A stretch of DNA of 64,000 nucleotides from Gemmatimonadota bacterium (lineage in GTDB: Bacteria; Gemmatimonadota; Gemmatimonadetes; Longimicrobiales; Gaopeijiaceae): positions 62,001 to 126,000 of the forward strand of contig JAPPGZ010000107.1 in NCBI GenBank assembly GCA_028874905.1, given 5' to 3'. This document shows, one piece after another, positions 6,153 to 59,102 of this stretch; position 1 is the first letter of the stretch; each line of letters begins with the position of its first letter. A program made the position numbers and the translations under genes. The notes under the pieces were generated by a model. It had not been told where the DNA came from. It saw nothing but the letters and a program-made list of their open reading frames with translations, and searched no databases.

Positions 6153-7276
6153 AGTCCCGGCTCCTGTTGTGCGGCATGGCCTGCGCGGTCACGAGCGCCT
6201 GCGCGAGCTCGGACACCGCGATCGAGTTTCGCGAGGTACCGGCCGACGCGCTCACGACGCCTTTTCCCGGTGTGGAATTCACGGCCATCCGGGACATCGT
6301 GGCCGCGCCGGGCGCGGTCTGGGTCCTCGACACCTCTCCACCGTTCCTCACGCGGATCGAGCCACGCGGTGGTGGCACCGTTCGTGGTGGCGACCGCGGT
6401 GAAGGTCCGGAGGATCTCCTCTTCCCCATCGCCCTTCAGATCGACCCGGACAGCGGTCTGGCACACGTGTGGGATCTCGGCGCCAGGGCACACAAGGTCT
6501 TCGACGCGACCATATCGCTGGTCCGGTCGGATCGCCTGCGGGGAGCGGACTGGGCGCGCCGCACGGATTTCACCGACGTCTCCTACGCGGACCCCTACCG
6601 TGTCCGTCTGGATGGACGGGGCACGGTCGTCGTGGACACGCCCGCCAATCTCGACGTCACGGCCGACTTCCGGCGAGCGTCTCTCGTACGGGCCGATCTC
6701 GCGCTGGAGACCCGCCGGGAAGTCGTCGCCTTCTCGGACTACATGCGGTCGACACGGGAAGACCCCGGAGAATTCGTGCCCGTCCCCCTGTGGGACGCTT
6801 GCGGAAGCGACCTGGTGCTCTGGCGTCCCGCCTCGCACGACCTGGTCTGGCTGGACGCCGATGGATCGATCGCAGCCCACGTCCCGATCCCGGGACACCC
6901 TTCCCCGATCCGGGAGGCGGACATCGTAGTCTATCTGGAGAGGATGATCCGCCTCGAACTGGGGCCGAACTACGCCGCGGCCGGGATCGACCTGGAGGTC
7001 ATGGCCCGAGACGTGCGAGCGCAATTCTCGGATGAATTGCCGTTCGTGACCTCGGTCCGGTGCCAGGCGGGAGGCGCGGCATGGCTCCGTCTGTTCGACA
7101 ACCGGACCGATCCCCTGGGACACGGCCGCCGCTGGCTGCGAGTGACCAGCGCAGGATCTGTCGACGCGCTCGAATTCCCCCCCTCGTTCGAGCCTCTGAC
7201 CGCCACGTCGCGGGAAGTGCTCGGCTCCTTTGAATCCTCCGACGCGTTACAGCGGCTCGCCGAATGGACATGGTGA
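6149..7276 (+). CDS. Six-bladed beta-propeller lipoprotein
   Basis: A 375-residue exported protein. The N-terminus has a short hydrophobic segment ending at the lipobox-like VTSAC. The body has repeated strand-turn blades with asp/gly-rich turns, for example VWVLDTSPPFLTRI and AHVWDLGARAHKVFD, plus a GEGPEDLLFP segment. These resemble the 6-bladed beta-propeller proteins that Bacteroidota place beside small secreted cysteine-rich peptides of the NVEALA type. It overlaps the redoxin-like gene by four bases and is followed 41 bases later by an eight-cysteine peptide gene. The ligand is unknown. The propeller call is inference from blade periodicity and context. Confidence 0.6.
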   Translation: MKSRLLLCGMACAVTSACASSDTAIEFREVPADALTTPFPGVEFTAIRDIVAAPGAVWVLDTSPPFLTRIEPRGGGTVRGGDRGEGPEDLLFPIALQIDPDSGLAHVWDLGARAHKVFDATISLVRSDRLRGADWARRTDFTDVSYADPYRVRLDGRGTVVVDTPANLDVTADFRRASLVRADLALETRREVVAFSDYMRSTREDPGEFVPVPLWDACGSDLVLWRPASHDLVWLDADGSIAAHVPIPGHPSPIREADIVVYLERMIRLELGPNYAAAGIDLEVMARDVRAQFSDELPFVTSVRCQAGGAAWLRLFDNRTDPLGHGRRWLRVTSAGSVDALEFPPSFEPLTATSREVLGSFESSDALQRLAEWTW

Positions 7277-54380: not shown

Positions 54381-55840
54381 TGGACAAGTCGACCGTCATC
54401 ACCTTCATCATCTTCGCGTACCTCGCGGTAACGCTCGGCGTAGGAATCGTAGCGGGCAGACGGGCGTCACGGAGTGTACAGGGCTTTGTCGCTGGCGACC
54501 GGGACTTCGGCCTCCTGGTCATGTATTTCATCACCGGCGCTACCGTCTTCTCCGCCTTCGCCTTTCTGGGAGGCCCCGGGTGGGCCTACTCCCGTGGCGC
54601 GGCCGCCTTCTACATCCTGACCTACGGGGTGCTGGGAATGGCCCCGTGGTACGCGATGGGCCCCAAGGCCGCCGCGCTGGGACGGCGCTTCGGGTTCGTC
54701 ACGCAGGCCCAGCTCCTGGTGGGCCGCTTTCCGTCGCGCGCCCTGTCGGCGGTCATGGCGTTGCTCACCCTGGCGGCCTTCGTTCCGTACGTCACCATCC
54801 AGATGCGCGGCGCCGGGATCGTGATCGAGGCGGTGACCGACGGCGCGGTTCCGCTCGCGGCAGGCGCGGCTCTGGCCTACGGCATCGTGCTCCTCTATGT
54901 GTTGACGAGCGGCGTTTCCGCCGTGGGTTGGACGAACACCTTTCAGGGCGTCTTCATGGTCGGCATCGCCTGGGCGCTCGGCATCTATCTTCCGAACCGG
55001 CTATACGGCGGCGTCGGTCCCATGTTTGAACAGATCCTGGCCAACCGCCCCGAATTGCTGTCTCTGCCGGGGCTCGATGGCAGCGGCGAACCATGGAGCT
55101 GGGGAGCATACTCTACCGCGATCCTCGCGAGTGCGATCGGGCTGACCATGTGGCCGCACCTGTTCATGAAAGCATTCACAGCCCGGAGCGATGCGACGAT
55201 TCGCCGAACCGTGATCCTCTTCCCCACGTTTCAGTTGTTCCTCATTCCCGTCTTCCTGATCGGGTTCGCGGGCGTCATGTTCCCGGAGTCTCCCGAGCAG
55301 TCCGACTTCATCCTGCCCTTCCTGATTCTGCGTTCCGACCTCCCCGCGCTGGTGGTCGGCCTTTTTTGCGCCGGCGCGCTGTCCGCCTCCATGTCCACCG
55401 GCGACGCCCTGCTTCACGGAGCGGCGTCGGTGGCCGTGCAGGACGGAGTGCAGCCCTTCAGGAGCCTTACGGATCGAGGGCAGAGGCTGCTGATGAGGAT
55501 GCTCGTCGTAGCCGTCGGAGCCGTGGCCTACCTGTTCGCGCTTGTGGAGAGGTTCTCCCTGGTGGACCTCCTGCTTGCTTCGTACGGGATCATCGCCCAG
55601 TTCATGCCTTCACTGCTCTCCGCCATGTACTGGAAGAGAGCCACCACCACCGGCGTCGTATGGGGACTGGTGGCCGGTTCGGCGGTGTCCGTATTCTTCT
55701 TCCGGTTTCCGGAACTCAAGCCGTTCGGGATGCACGAGGGCATCCTGGGCCTGGTGGTCCACGTTCCCGTCCTGCTGATCGTCAGTCTGCTCGGCAAGGC
55801 ACAGGACCCGGAGCATGTCAACCGGTACGTGAATGTCTAG
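54380..55840 (+). CDS. Sodium:solute symporter (SSS family)
   Basis: A 486-residue transporter with about 13 hydrophobic segments. SSS features include YFITGATVFSAFAFLGGPGW, AAFVPYVTIQMRGAG and LFCAGALSASMSTGDALLHGAASV. Family members bring in proline, pantothenate, acetate, short carboxylates or sugars with Na+. The substrate cannot be called from sequence. ATG 54380 is chosen because it overlaps the partner stop; the preceding GTG codon would add one residue. Its stop overlaps the chorismate mutase start. It may carry a substrate for the acyl-CoA operon upstream, which is inference. Confidence 0.9.
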   Translation: MDKSTVITFIIFAYLAVTLGVGIVAGRRASRSVQGFVAGDRDFGLLVMYFITGATVFSAFAFLGGPGWAYSRGAAAFYILTYGVLGMAPWYAMGPKAAALGRRFGFVTQAQLLVGRFPSRALSAVMALLTLAAFVPYVTIQMRGAGIVIEAVTDGAVPLAAGAALAYGIVLLYVLTSGVSAVGWTNTFQGVFMVGIAWALGIYLPNRLYGGVGPMFEQILANRPELLSLPGLDGSGEPWSWGAYSTAILASAIGLTMWPHLFMKAFTARSDATIRRTVILFPTFQLFLIPVFLIGFAGVMFPESPEQSDFILPFLILRSDLPALVVGLFCAGALSASMSTGDALLHGAASVAVQDGVQPFRSLTDRGQRLLMRMLVVAVGAVAYLFALVERFSLVDLLLASYGIIAQFMPSLLSAMYWKRATTTGVVWGLVAGSAVSVFFFRFPELKPFGMHEGILGLVVHVPVLLIVSLLGKAQDPEHVNRYVNV

Positions 55841-56177
55841 CGAAGACGCGCGTTCGGGGCACGACACTTCCCGCGGCAGTCCTGCCGGGGCCAGGAGCGA
55901 CGAGATGGCACGGTTGCGCGATGCCGTCCTGCAATGCGATCGACGGCTGATCGAGGTCCTCGCCCGGCGGCGTGATCTAGTGACCCGGATCGGCGAACTG
56001 AAGAAGCGCACGGGACTGCCTGTTACCGACCCGCAACGAGAGGCGGCGGTGGTGCGGCGGGCCGCCGTTCTGGCAAGGGAATCGGGGCTGGACGAGGAAC
56101 TGGTGCGCGATCTGATCTGGAAGGTGATCGCATCCGCGCGGACCCGGCAGCTCATCTCGGACGAACCCGCCGAATAA
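55833..56177 (+). CDS. Chorismate mutase, AroQ type
   Basis: A 114-residue protein with an AroQ helical fold from about residue 25 (LRDAVLQCDRRLIEVLARRRDLVTRIGELKKRTG) including the Arg, Lys and Glu positions that bind chorismate. The N-terminal 24 residues are disordered. Chorismate mutase makes prephenate for Phe and Tyr. No fused prephenate dehydratase or DAHP synthase is present. It overlaps the symporter gene by eight bases, an unrelated partner. A helical terminator lies right after the stop. Confidence 0.88.
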   Translation: MSSEDARSGHDTSRGSPAGARSDEMARLRDAVLQCDRRLIEVLARRRDLVTRIGELKKRTGLPVTDPQREAAVVRRAAVLARESGLDEELVRDLIWKVIASARTRQLISDEPAE

Positions 56178-56179
56178 AG

Positions 56180-56220
56180 GAAGCCCCCGGCGGGCAGCAC
56201 ACTACCCGCTCGGGGGCTTC
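56180..56220 (-). terminator. Strong hairpin terminator, most likely for the minus-strand RNA
   Basis: GAAGCCCCCG (56180-56189) pairs with CGGGGGCTTC (56211-56220), with an inner GCGGG/CCCGC pair, making a long GC stem. On the minus strand it is followed by CTTTATT, so it suits termination in that direction best; on the plus strand no U tract follows. It may work on both sides for aroQ and the candidate RNA. Confidence 0.65.
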
Positions 56221-56229
56221 GTTCGCTGG

Positions 56230-56550
56230 CGAGTCCAGAGATTTCCGTTTCGGCGCCGTCATGTGCGACGGCCGGTTCTCCGTCTCTTCACCCTTCCGGC
56301 GTTTCCGCCATCCAGGCCGTCCCCCGTTCCCAGGGACTCCGGCTGCTTCCAGCGACCCCGCAGCCGTCGCGATCTCCGCCGAACCCGAGATCGCGCCCGC
56401 CTCGAACCCCGTTTCCGGCGCTCTCGGCGCTTTGGGCCTCGCCCGGTTCCATCTGCCGGGGGTTTCCCCCCTGCGACGGCCTTTTCGGGGCCCTCCCCGG
56501 TGCCTCGGCTCCGTTCCTTTCGGCCCGGCTCCGCCGCCTCGGGGAAACCA
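56230..56550 (-). ncRNA. Candidate structured non-coding RNA between rpmA and the aroQ terminator
   Basis: A 455-base gap (56178-56632) lacks a convincing protein gene. On the minus strand it holds GAAA-loop hairpins at 56458-56471 (five bases each arm), 56298-56309 (four) and 56409-56418 (three), a GAAG-loop hairpin at 56342-56353, and a 9-bp perfect stem 56368-56376/56387-56395. GGUUUCC (56543-56549) can pair with GGAAAUC (56240-56246) to close the region. The tetraloops are GNRA only on the minus strand, which argues for that transcript. A -10-like TATTAA lies at 56553-56558 and a terminator at 56180-56220. I recognise no RNase P, tmRNA, SRP or 6S features. Confidence 0.5.
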
Positions 56551-56552
56551 CT

Positions 56553-56558
56553 TTAATA
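56553..56558 (-). promoter_or_regulatory. -10-like element before the candidate RNA
   Basis: TATTAA on the minus strand, AT-rich in a GC-rich setting, lies just upstream of the predicted 5' closing stem. No convincing -35 is seen at the right spacing; the region overlaps the hairpin at 56568-56586. Confidence 0.3.
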
Positions 56559-56567
56559 CATCAATCG

Positions 56568-56586
56568 GAAAACCGCAAGCGTTTTC
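56568..56586 (-). terminator. Hairpin downstream of rpmA
   Basis: GAAAAC (56568-56573) pairs with GTTTTC (56581-56586), with GC/GC inside, 47 bases past the rpmA stop. On the minus strand the 3' arm ends GGTTTTC, which could stand in for a weak U tract. It would separate rpmA from the candidate RNA. Confidence 0.45.
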
Positions 56587-56632
56587 TCTTCGGGACCCAC
56601 TGGACGTTCTGCGCGAGTCGTGTGCGCAACGC

Positions 56633-56893
56633 CTATTGGCGAGCGTCGTCGTAGACCGAAACGACCCGGCGGCGACGGAGATTCTCGAACTTCACGACCC
56701 CGTCCGCCTTGGCGAACAGGGTGTCGTCCCTTCCTCTGCCTACGTTGTTGCCAGGGTGGAAGCGCGTGCCGCGCTGACGGACCAGGATGTTTCCCGCCAA
56801 CACTCGCTCACCCGCGTAACGCTTTACGCCCAGACGTTTTGGGTTGCTGTCGCGTCCGTTGCGGGACGACCCGACGCCTTTCTTGTGAGCCAT
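56633..56893 (-). CDS. rpmA: 50S ribosomal protein L27
   Basis: L27 lies near the peptidyl transferase centre. The 86-residue protein begins [16 protein letters not shown], continues [25 protein letters not shown] and [17 protein letters not shown], all family-typical. There is no N-terminal cleavable extension of the Firmicutes type. It follows rplU by nine bases, the usual rplU-rpmA order. The next protein gene on this strand is absent for about 450 bases. Confidence 0.97.
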
Positions 56894-57374: not shown

Positions 57375-58913
57375 CTACGCTGCCTTGTACTTCGCCGTCA
57401 CATCCGACCGGGCGCGCCCGGCAAGGAGCCGGAACTCGTCATGGCGCATGAGCGGGTCGTCCCGCAGGTCCAGCCGCAACCGGGTTCGCCGCCTGAGCCT
57501 CTGCAGGAACTGCGGCTCGAACTCCATGACCTGCAGGGCGACCTCCGGATGGACCCGTACCTGGATGTCCTGCTTCTCACCGGCAGCGGCGGCCCTCCTC
57601 ACGCAACGTTCGATCTCCCTGACGACCGAGGTGGGTGTCCACACGCGTCCGCTGCCGCTGCACGCCGCGCAGGGTTCGGTGAGCGACTGCAGAAGCGATG
57701 GGCGGACACGTTGCCGGGTCATCTCGATCAGCCCGAGGTCCGACACTTCCCACGTGCGAGTGCGTGCGCGATCCCGTCCCAGGCAGGTTCGGAGTTCCTG
57801 CAGGACCCGGCCCCGGTTCTCCTGCGACTCCATGTCGATGAAGTCAATGACGATAATGCCGCCGATGTCGCGCAGGCGGAGTTGCGCCGCGATCTCGCGA
57901 GCGGCGTCCAGATTGGTCTTCAGAATCGTCTGCTCCGGGTCCTTCTTCTTCCTGCCGGTGAACCGTCCGGTGTTGACGTCCACGGACACCAGCGCTTCGG
58001 TCTGCTCGATGATCACGTGTCCGCCGGAGGGGAGTTCGACCTTTCTGTGGAAGGCGCGTTGAATGTCCGCCTCCACACCTGCGTGATCGAAGAGGGGTAC
58101 GTCGCCCGCGTAGTAGTGGACTCGATCGAGAAGATCGGGATCGAAGGTCCGGACGTACTGGACGATCTGCCGGTAGACGTCCCGGTTGTCCACCGTGACC
58201 CCGTCGAAACGATTGGTGAAGAGGTCTCGGATTACCCCGGAGATCAGCTTTGCCTCTGCGTGGAGCAGCGCGGGGGCGTCGGACCGGTCCGCCTTCTTCC
58301 GGATCGAGCGCCACTGCTTGCGGAGGTGGCGATACTCCTTCTCCAGACGCTCCTGTGTCAGCTCCTCACCGGCAGTACGCACGATCACTCCGCCCGATCC
58401 TTCCTCGACGACAGCCTTGGCCATGCCACGGAGCCGGCCGCGTTCACGGCGGTGTTCGATCTTGCGGCTCACGCCCACATGATCGGTCTCGGGCATGTAG
58501 ACAAGGAAGCGCCCGGGCAGGGAGATCTCGGTCGTGACCCGGGGCCCCTTTGTCGAGATCGCCTCCTTGGTCACCTTGACCACGACGATCTGGCCCTTGG
58601 TCAGAACCTCCTGGATGGGAGGCGAACTGCGGTCCCGTCCCCGTGCCCGCCGCACGCCTCCGTCGCCGTGCCCGCCGTTTTCAGAGGATCTTGCCAGGTC
58701 GGCCGCGTGCAGGAACGCCGCCTTCTCCTCGCCGATGTTTACAAAAGCTGCCTGGATGCCGGGCAGTACCGACTCGACACGGCCGAGAAAAATGTCACCG
58801 ACGAGCCGGCCCTGGTCCGGCCGGTCGAACATGAGTTCGGCAAGTGCCCCGTTTTCGGTGATCGCGACCCAGGACTCCTCGTCCGAGGTGCTGATCAGGA
58901 TTTCTCTTTTCAA
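57375..58913 (-). CDS. rng: Ribonuclease G/E family protein
   Basis: A 512-residue endoribonuclease of the RNase G/E family, active in rRNA maturation and mRNA decay. An S1 domain (about 35-125) is present but interrupted by a charged Gly-rich loop (ENGGHGDGGVRRARGRD). The catalytic part has VSVDVNTGRFTG and GGIIVIDFIDM with the Asp pair for Mg2+, and the zinc-link CAACSGSG matches the CPxC region. It lacks the long C-terminal scaffold of E. coli RNase E. The start is TTG 58913: MKREILISTS follows directly and GGGAGAGA precedes it. The encoding of rplU-rpmA next to it is a common gene order. Confidence 0.93.
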   Translation of the reverse strand: MKREILISTSDEESWVAITENGALAELMFDRPDQGRLVGDIFLGRVESVLPGIQAAFVNIGEEKAAFLHAADLARSSENGGHGDGGVRRARGRDRSSPPIQEVLTKGQIVVVKVTKEAISTKGPRVTTEISLPGRFLVYMPETDHVGVSRKIEHRRERGRLRGMAKAVVEEGSGGVIVRTAGEELTQERLEKEYRHLRKQWRSIRKKADRSDAPALLHAEAKLISGVIRDLFTNRFDGVTVDNRDVYRQIVQYVRTFDPDLLDRVHYYAGDVPLFDHAGVEADIQRAFHRKVELPSGGHVIIEQTEALVSVDVNTGRFTGRKKKDPEQTILKTNLDAAREIAAQLRLRDIGGIIVIDFIDMESQENRGRVLQELRTCLGRDRARTRTWEVSDLGLIEMTRQRVRPSLLQSLTEPCAACSGSGRVWTPTSVVREIERCVRRAAAAGEKQDIQVRVHPEVALQVMEFEPQFLQRLRRRTRLRLDLRDDPLMRHDEFRLLAGRARSDVTAKYKAA

Positions 58914-59102
58914 TTGGTCTCTCCCAAGGTGTACCCGCGATCGGCCAACGCCTGTCCGGCCCGTCCCGGCCACGTACCCGCCACGGTTGGGCGTGGTACG
59001 CAAACCGGCGACCGGGCTCGGCAGAAACGCCTCCGAACCACGGATCATGAAATCGTCGCGGCCCTGGCGAGAATGCCCATGGGCCCGAACCTGCCGGACG
59101 CA

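Follow-up and report, generated by a model that had tools for sequence, protein, structure and literature searches.

What is encoded between rpmA and the chorismate mutase gene that faces it in the window (the whole stretch of 64 000 nucleotides of Gemmatimonadota DNA that was analysed)? The candidate RNA region lies between rpmA, on the minus strand, and a convergent type II chorismate mutase gene, on the plus strand, and we suggest that rpmA is very probably followed by an RNA gene in its own right, whose family turned up in none of the databases searched. In particular, it appears highly likely from the sequence comparisons that 56545–56173 of the minus strand encodes a free-standing, pseudoknotted structured RNA of a new family, with transcription of the sigma-70 type. 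The features of the locus, in the direction of the minus strand, are:

56633..56893, minus strand: rpmA, ribosomal protein L27 (Pfam PF01016), the upstream neighbour
56550..56578, minus strand: promoter-like pair, −35 TTGCGG (56578–56573), 17-nt spacer, −10 TAAAGT (56555–56550)
56173..56545, minus strand: candidate RNA gene, start placed from the promoter-like pair (±5 nt) and end from the terminator; fold z −7.49
56173..56220, minus strand: predicted rho-independent terminator, hairpin 56220–56180, then CTTTATT
55833..56177, plus strand: type II chorismate mutase gene (Pfam PF01817), the convergent downstream neighbour

The −10-like element picked out in the sequence-only reading proved to be one part of a promoter-like pair, TTGCGG-N17-TAAAGT (56578–56550, minus strand), from which the start of the RNA is expected near 56545; between the RNA and 56632 lie the promoter and the rpmA 3' flank. 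The pattern TTGCG(G/C)-N17-TAnnnT, derived from the same 21 genus loci in which it was counted, stands upstream of the RNA in 21/21 of them, and the spacer measures 17 nt every time. Searching with a stricter sigma-70 consensus, which rejects the TTGCG −35 of the window's genus, returned promoters in 17/85 family members against 11/656 controls and, given that only 17/85 carry consensus promoters, those outside the genus are less clear. The terminator hairpin with its CTTTATT, likewise claimed earlier, was recovered, and a terminator-like hairpin lies directly 3' of the core in 68/87 family members against 83/656 control positions in the same loci. In the window the T-rich tail overlaps the chorismate mutase stop codon and the hairpin, being symmetric, could also serve the convergent gene. 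From these signals we infer that the RNA gene is transcribed. A putative rpmA terminator hairpin (56569–56585, minus strand; AAAACGC-TT-GCGGTTTT) overlaps the −35 of the RNA promoter, so that rpmA termination and RNA initiation may interfere.

The minus strand at 56560–56178 folds at −218.1 kcal/mol against −178.1 ± 5.3 kcal/mol for 100 dinucleotide shuffles (z −7.49, no shuffle as low), while the plus strand of the same stretch reaches z −3.75; with the covariation in homologues, this upholds the earlier proposal of a structured RNA on the minus strand. The minimum-energy fold contains four GAAA-capped stems (CCGAAAGG, GGGGGAAACCCC, CCGGAAACGG, GGCGGAAACGCC), so the tetraloop hairpins first proposed hold in part, the GAAG-capped one among them not being seen in the fold, and the perfect 9-bp stem proposed with them is the helix that we call P4 (56395–56387 with 56376–56368). 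An end-closing stem of 7 bp did not emerge from the comparisons; instead, the 3' end is tied to the body by a pseudoknot (56355–56349 with 56229–56223) together with the outer P8 stem (56286–56283 with 56234–56231), and the earlier model is corrected to one in which the predicted pseudoknot closes the 3' end. The 5' part of the fold comprises:

56399..56545, minus strand: lineage-specific 5' domain P1–P3, drawn from the minimum-energy fold and the genus alignments A1 and A7
about 56545–56494, minus strand: P1 hairpin, CCGAAAGG loop, 5' domain
about 56493–56435, minus strand: P2, GGGGGAAACCCC loop, 5' domain
about 56430–56399, minus strand: P3, CCGGAAACGG loop, 5' domain

This domain is less certain than the core, to which the covariation counts are confined. 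Alignment A1 uses 20/21 genus rows (the truncated L022 was left out) and A7 16/20. RNAalifold applied to A1 found only 10 pairs with covariation and paired the 3' end implausibly, and a hand-drawn structure with broader sampling was used in its place.

We propose that the RNA is built on a core of five stems, P4–P8, to which lineage-specific hairpins would have been added at the 5' end. The core consists of:

56368..56395, minus strand: P4 hairpin, 9 bp (56395–56387 with 56376–56368), UUCGG/UUCGA-type loop; double compensatory changes in 9/9 pairs (88 sequences), 90.8% of cells paired
56341..56365, minus strand: P5 hairpin, loop GGGGUCGCUGGAA holding the pseudoknot 5' arm (56355–56349); double changes in 6/6 pairs, 98.3% paired
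56319..56337, minus strand: P6 hairpin; double changes in 5/5 pairs, 97.3% paired
56291..56316, minus strand: P7, a two-part hairpin with a GAAA loop in the window; double changes in 9/9 pairs, helices 85.5% and 89.5% paired
56231..56286, minus strand: P8 domain; double changes in 15/15 pairs (88 sequences)
56286–56283/56234–56231, minus strand: outer P8 stem, 79.0% paired
56281–56277/56241–56237, minus strand: P8a, 79.2% paired
56272–56267/56260–56255, minus strand: P8b with a GCACAU loop, 95.7% paired
56223..56229, minus strand: pseudoknot 3' arm CCAGCGA, partner of UCGCUGG in the P5 loop; 94.8% of cells paired, double changes in 5/7 pairs

Covarying base pairs, on which the earlier proposal had been made to depend, were found in abundance. 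In alignment A6 (88 sequences, mean pairwise identity 0.54, minimum 0.35) double compensatory changes occur in 49/51 pairs and 989 cells, with 90.9% of cells paired, pseudoknot and outer P8 included; 0/500 shuffles equalled the observed scores, and sliding the partners by 1–3 columns left 37–45% paired and at most 172 double-change cells. A6 was made from A5 (99 rows) by removing 16 weak, partial, misaligned or near-duplicate rows (L065, L069, L083, L087 twice, L093, L094, L096, L111, L128, L129, L135, L138, L150, L151 and L157) and adding five (L163, L182, L189, L192 and L173). Since A4 and A6, which give the largest counts, were fitted to the structure, they favour the one proposed, and a sequence-only alignment offers a more independent view. 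On such an alignment of 50 sequences RNAalifold predicted 27 pairs de novo, in P4, P5, P6 and P7, 25 of them with double changes; the other two fall within the P5 loop, in competition with the pseudoknot, which RNAalifold cannot represent and which was therefore not recoverable in this unfitted test. P8 was not predicted there. (The 50 sequences of alignment A8 were drawn from the 88 in A6, for the most part because they have fewer insertions.) With plain MAFFT alignment of 22 sequences (A2), 91.6% of cells are paired and 20/40 pairs show double changes, and 0/500 shuffles attained any of five measures. P8a and outer P8, each 79% paired, are the weak points of the core. Its conserved unpaired bases are GAGGU in the P5 loop, where conservation is strong (82–97% for each of the unpaired ones listed), UU.G in the P4 loop, AAG before P8 and AA after P8b; the P8b loop is moderately conserved.

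The pseudoknot joins UCGCUGG, in the P5 hairpin loop, to CCAGCGA at the 3' end, just before the terminator. A search expression caught it in 73/99 rows, of which 56 have CGCUGG/CCAGCG, three UGCUGG/CCAGCA and one CACUGG/CCAGUG, and a few a single mismatched pair. The 26 rows that it missed were in several cases lost through a change in both arms, and there too, read by eye, the arms have changed in step (CGUCGG/CCGACG, CGUUGG/CCAACG, CGCCGG/CCGGCG). Near the end of transcription, pairing of the P5 terminal loop with the last bases before the terminator would close the RNA into a compact body with a pseudoknot.

Homologous regions in related genomes, which the original proposal called for, were found both by DNA search and by covariance models. 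Plain DNA search gave matches in 28/98 genomes, including 21/23 of the genus (the window's own genome among them); the other two, G008 and G010, had no match by DNA or covariance model. Two short DNA matches from another family, L023 and L024, are shorter homologues with promoter- and terminator-like signals. A first covariance model, spanning the core from P4 to the pseudoknot and built from 22 sequences, matched 44/154 genomes of the order; a second matched 126/394 genomes of the class and 113/395 of a phylum sample, with all listed matches inside the class and the share of that sample lying outside the class not stated; a third, a 174-position core, matched 129/394 class genomes, in 58/143 genera and six family labels (f1, f2, f3, f4, f6 and f7). 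These genome counts are lower bounds, only the 6–18 best candidates per genome having been scored, and they include weak matches near E 1e-5 to 1e-3 that are probably noise and on which nothing in the argument depends (e.g. L151, L157; G162, G233; G615, G529). At the settings used 265/394 class genomes had no match, and the RNA may be absent from many lineages of the class or may have been missed by the search. Two to four matches occur in 16/129 positive genomes, one second match (in G112) being weak, and the others have one. One genome carries a tandem of two diverged copies in the same orientation, with 1.3 kb between them and a separate upstream block for each (G060:C99; L087:5001–5178 and 6474–6658). 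The f4 copy L135 (genome G241) is nearly identical to the f1 copy L136 (G033) and, as G241 has 7% contamination, L135 may come from a contaminating contig.

In a wider scan, a 19-nt P5 pattern searched against GTDB genomes hit 37 contigs, 26 of which the covariance model confirms: 24 are titled Gemmatimonadota or members of it and two are Gammaproteobacteria (L192 and L173). The other 11 were set aside as chance matches, showing short pattern-only matches, weak scores or none at E 0.1. The two gammaproteobacterial copies lie between a LysM-domain gene and a gene for a PLP-dependent enzyme, and L192 has def and fmt close to the RNA; its identity is 0.73 to the closest Gemmatimonadota copies and 0.68 to L173. 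Transfer between phyla is the probable origin of these copies: when 296 genomes were sampled from the order to which one carrier (G437) belongs, that carrier gave a strong match and two others weak ones (27 bits), and such sparseness argues for transfer and also shows the specificity of the model. In one of the 24 Gemmatimonadota contigs, that of Roseisolibacter sp. H3M3-2 (L195), the model matches P4–P6 only.

The position after rpmA, put forward earlier as a possible mark of the family, holds in the window's genus and gives way elsewhere. In the 21 genus loci the RNA is flanked by rpmA, by the chorismate mutase gene or by both (several contigs are cut), and this rpmA type makes up 5/98 of the loci compared. 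lipB lies upstream in 24 of the 98 and a convergent rnhA downstream in 26, both in 23, giving 27 with either; carA is usually next, and these loci come from families f1 and f2, apart from one in an f4 genome, possibly a contaminant. Most other loci lie elsewhere, with none of the queried genes nearby save for one distant match in L117. Family f7 has no common neighbour gene; an apparent neighbour cluster there was discarded, its position being inconsistent.

Eight f2 copies (L068, L069, two in L087, L088, L091, L095 and L156) have a conserved block about 200–320 nt upstream of P4, with DnaA-box-like repeats TTWTNCACA and TGTGGA (TTATCCACA, TGTGGATAA, TGTGGAAA), GTTACAA and, in some copies, the palindrome TTGAAACTGTTACAA. 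The block accompanies copies at different places in one genome (L068 and L069 in G072; the two in L087). In 91 stretches taken from upstream of the RNA, DnaA boxes were matched 6 times, where 0.3 would be expected, and GTTACAA 8 times, where the expectation is 0.2; the motifs had been noticed in the same sequences. An origin of replication at the block was considered and rejected: among ten neighbours scanned, Pfam families were assigned to six, and no replication gene was seen.

Considering that the neighbours differ between lineages and that positive genomes have one to four matches, action in trans is the most likely mode for this RNA, and the free-standing gene, the widespread covarying core, the shifting neighbours and the convergent downstream gene (here and at the rnhA loci) point the same way; we regard a trans-acting RNA as probable. 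On how it works opinion is nearly evenly balanced, and we suggest with about equal hope and reserve that it acts mainly through a protein partner, in an RNA–protein particle or as a protein-binding regulator, and not as an antisense RNA or cis-switch, since its core helices are kept by compensatory change and its conserved unpaired bases lie inside the folded core, with no exposed seed. Both the trans-acting and the protein-binding steps are read entirely from anatomy. The main rival to a protein-bound RNA, itself rather unlikely, is a trans-acting antisense small RNA for which the body would be a scaffold while an exposed loop, in P8b or the 5' domain, pairs with mRNAs. A free-standing gene with promoter and terminator signals would suit such a regulator, as would the several matches in 16/129 positive genomes and the moderate conservation of the P8b loop; against this, the loop with the highest conservation, UCGCUGG, is already engaged in the internal pseudoknot, where it varies in concert with its partner, and conservation extends through a helical architecture of about 175 nt, a pattern unlike that of typical seed-type small RNAs.

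A very divergent housekeeping RNA (6S RNA, tmRNA, SRP RNA or RNase P RNA) would account for the broad distribution in the class, and is improbable on account of the multi-stem pseudoknotted core, unlike the single long hairpin of 6S RNA, and of the matches to the other three families, located elsewhere. With Rfam 15 at gathering thresholds the window yields one tRNA and 15 relatives yield two tRNAs, with none over the RNA; a permissive search of the window stretch gave five chance-level matches over the terminator hairpin (E at least 1.4, all below gathering scores), and at E up to 5 no match overlapped the RNA in 16 core-bearing loci. The earlier failure to recognise RNase P, tmRNA, SRP or 6S motifs is in keeping with these searches. 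As candidates for the locus the known RNAs were each rejected: for tmRNA, ARAGORN finds only a tRNA-Leu in the window, the RF00023 match of the window's genome is on contig C14, and tmRNA is above cut-off elsewhere in 10/10 genomes; RNase P RNA (RF00010) appears as two pieces, below cut-off, where contig C30 of the window's genome begins; the one SRP RNA match of that genome (RF00169) is on contig C101, at 39.2 bits against a cut-off of 40, and in 10/10 genomes SRP RNA matches lie elsewhere, six above cut-off. 6S RNA (RF00013) gave no match in 10/10 class genomes, which makes a 6S substitute conceivable; the same model was positive in only 5/14 control genomes, some of them archaea, so that its absence says little. 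A structured RNA of this kind, widespread and free-standing, would suit the part of a global regulator such as 6S RNA, from which ours differs in lacking an Rfam 6S match and in its multi-stem pseudoknot architecture. tmRNA and RNase P RNA are similar in length and are multi-stem with pseudoknots, and are set apart by the matches to both elsewhere in the window's genome.

The sequence signals and covariation are those of an orphan large structured non-coding RNA, which is a kind and not a family. OLE, ROOL and GOLLD have Rfam models and are longer than roughly 250–375 nt, the size of the RNA studied here, which differs from them also in having no Rfam match and in occurring mainly in Gemmatimonadota. 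They share with it a long, complex fold in bacteria at no obvious riboswitch position (Nature 2025, PMC12286853). The smtA motif, or 'Soda Lake RNA', is another covarying, comparative-genomics find that has no assigned function; it is over 350 nt, is described as confined to Thioalkalivibrio and is placed upstream of smtA (PMC11109978). Our RNA belongs to another phylum and is free-standing, a separation made by description and not by sequence. The word start 'gemmatimon' is absent from the main text of two structured-RNA surveys (PMC11109978, PMC6429828), and among the titles and abstract openings listed in PMC for Gemmatimonadetes, Gemmatimonadota and Gemmatimonas with RNA none describes the RNA, though a description may exist elsewhere.

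Equally improbable is the RNA of a mobile element, as a transposon or guide-type RNA. The shifting location, the several matches per genome, the tandem pair with its 1.3-kb gap and the presence in two Gammaproteobacteria would accord with mobility; 30 flanking proteins scanned from a few loci include no transposase, and the lipB–rnhA site is stable across two families. A virus-borne RNA was likewise discarded, the P5 pattern being without a match in viral contigs, although that pattern catches only 24/99 family members. A shade less probable still is a cis-acting element, whether a long rpmA 3' UTR, an attenuator or a riboswitch. For it speaks that, wherever a contig of the genus includes both, the RNA follows rpmA in the same orientation; yet a conserved promoter-like pair separates the two, other genera have the RNA after lipB or unrelated genes, and a riboswitch or cis-regulator would be sought as a 5' leader in stable gene association, whereas here the neighbours vary by lineage and the next gene is convergent, leaving no downstream coding region to switch. 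Protein coding was also rejected: the overlapping ORFs scanned, three in number (86, 97 and 279 aa), gave no Pfam family, and 20 same-genus copies differ in RNA length by numbers of nucleotides that are not multiples of three. That GC-rich DNA merely folds easily here, as its composition and a plus strand folding better than its shuffles might hint, is scarcely credible against compensatory changes in 49/51 pairs (A6) and 25/27 (unfitted alignment) and conserved promoter-like and terminator signals.

We return to the structured, probably trans-acting RNA of a new family. Within a single class of a soil phylum that is both abundant and little studied, no fewer than 58 genera carry it, and its covariation support is strong. 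Few large structured RNA families without an assigned function are known in bacteria; those large orphan bacterial RNAs that have been solved tended to reveal new biochemistry. A bolder and doubtful proposal is that this is a new bacterial RNA machine, whose core would have kept one activity, as a catalyst or at the centre of an RNA–protein particle, and which would be old in the class, passed to some Gammaproteobacteria and, in the f2 copies, under the control of the DnaA-box-like block, linking it to replication or the cell cycle. The record of Roseisolibacter sp. H3M3-2 is not labelled a metagenome bin, and the function may therefore be directly testable there.

Finally, at lipB-type f1 loci (L073, L084, L086, L139 and L155; alignment A10) a palindrome of 18 bp (TTGTTGTCTAGACAACAA, with close variants) lies near the lipB end, and a ATCTGTTTACG-like conserved sequence stands about 245 nt upstream of P4; both are possible operator sites. 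In the window, an RNase E/G family gene (57375–59048, minus strand) lies just upstream of rplU–rpmA and the RNA.
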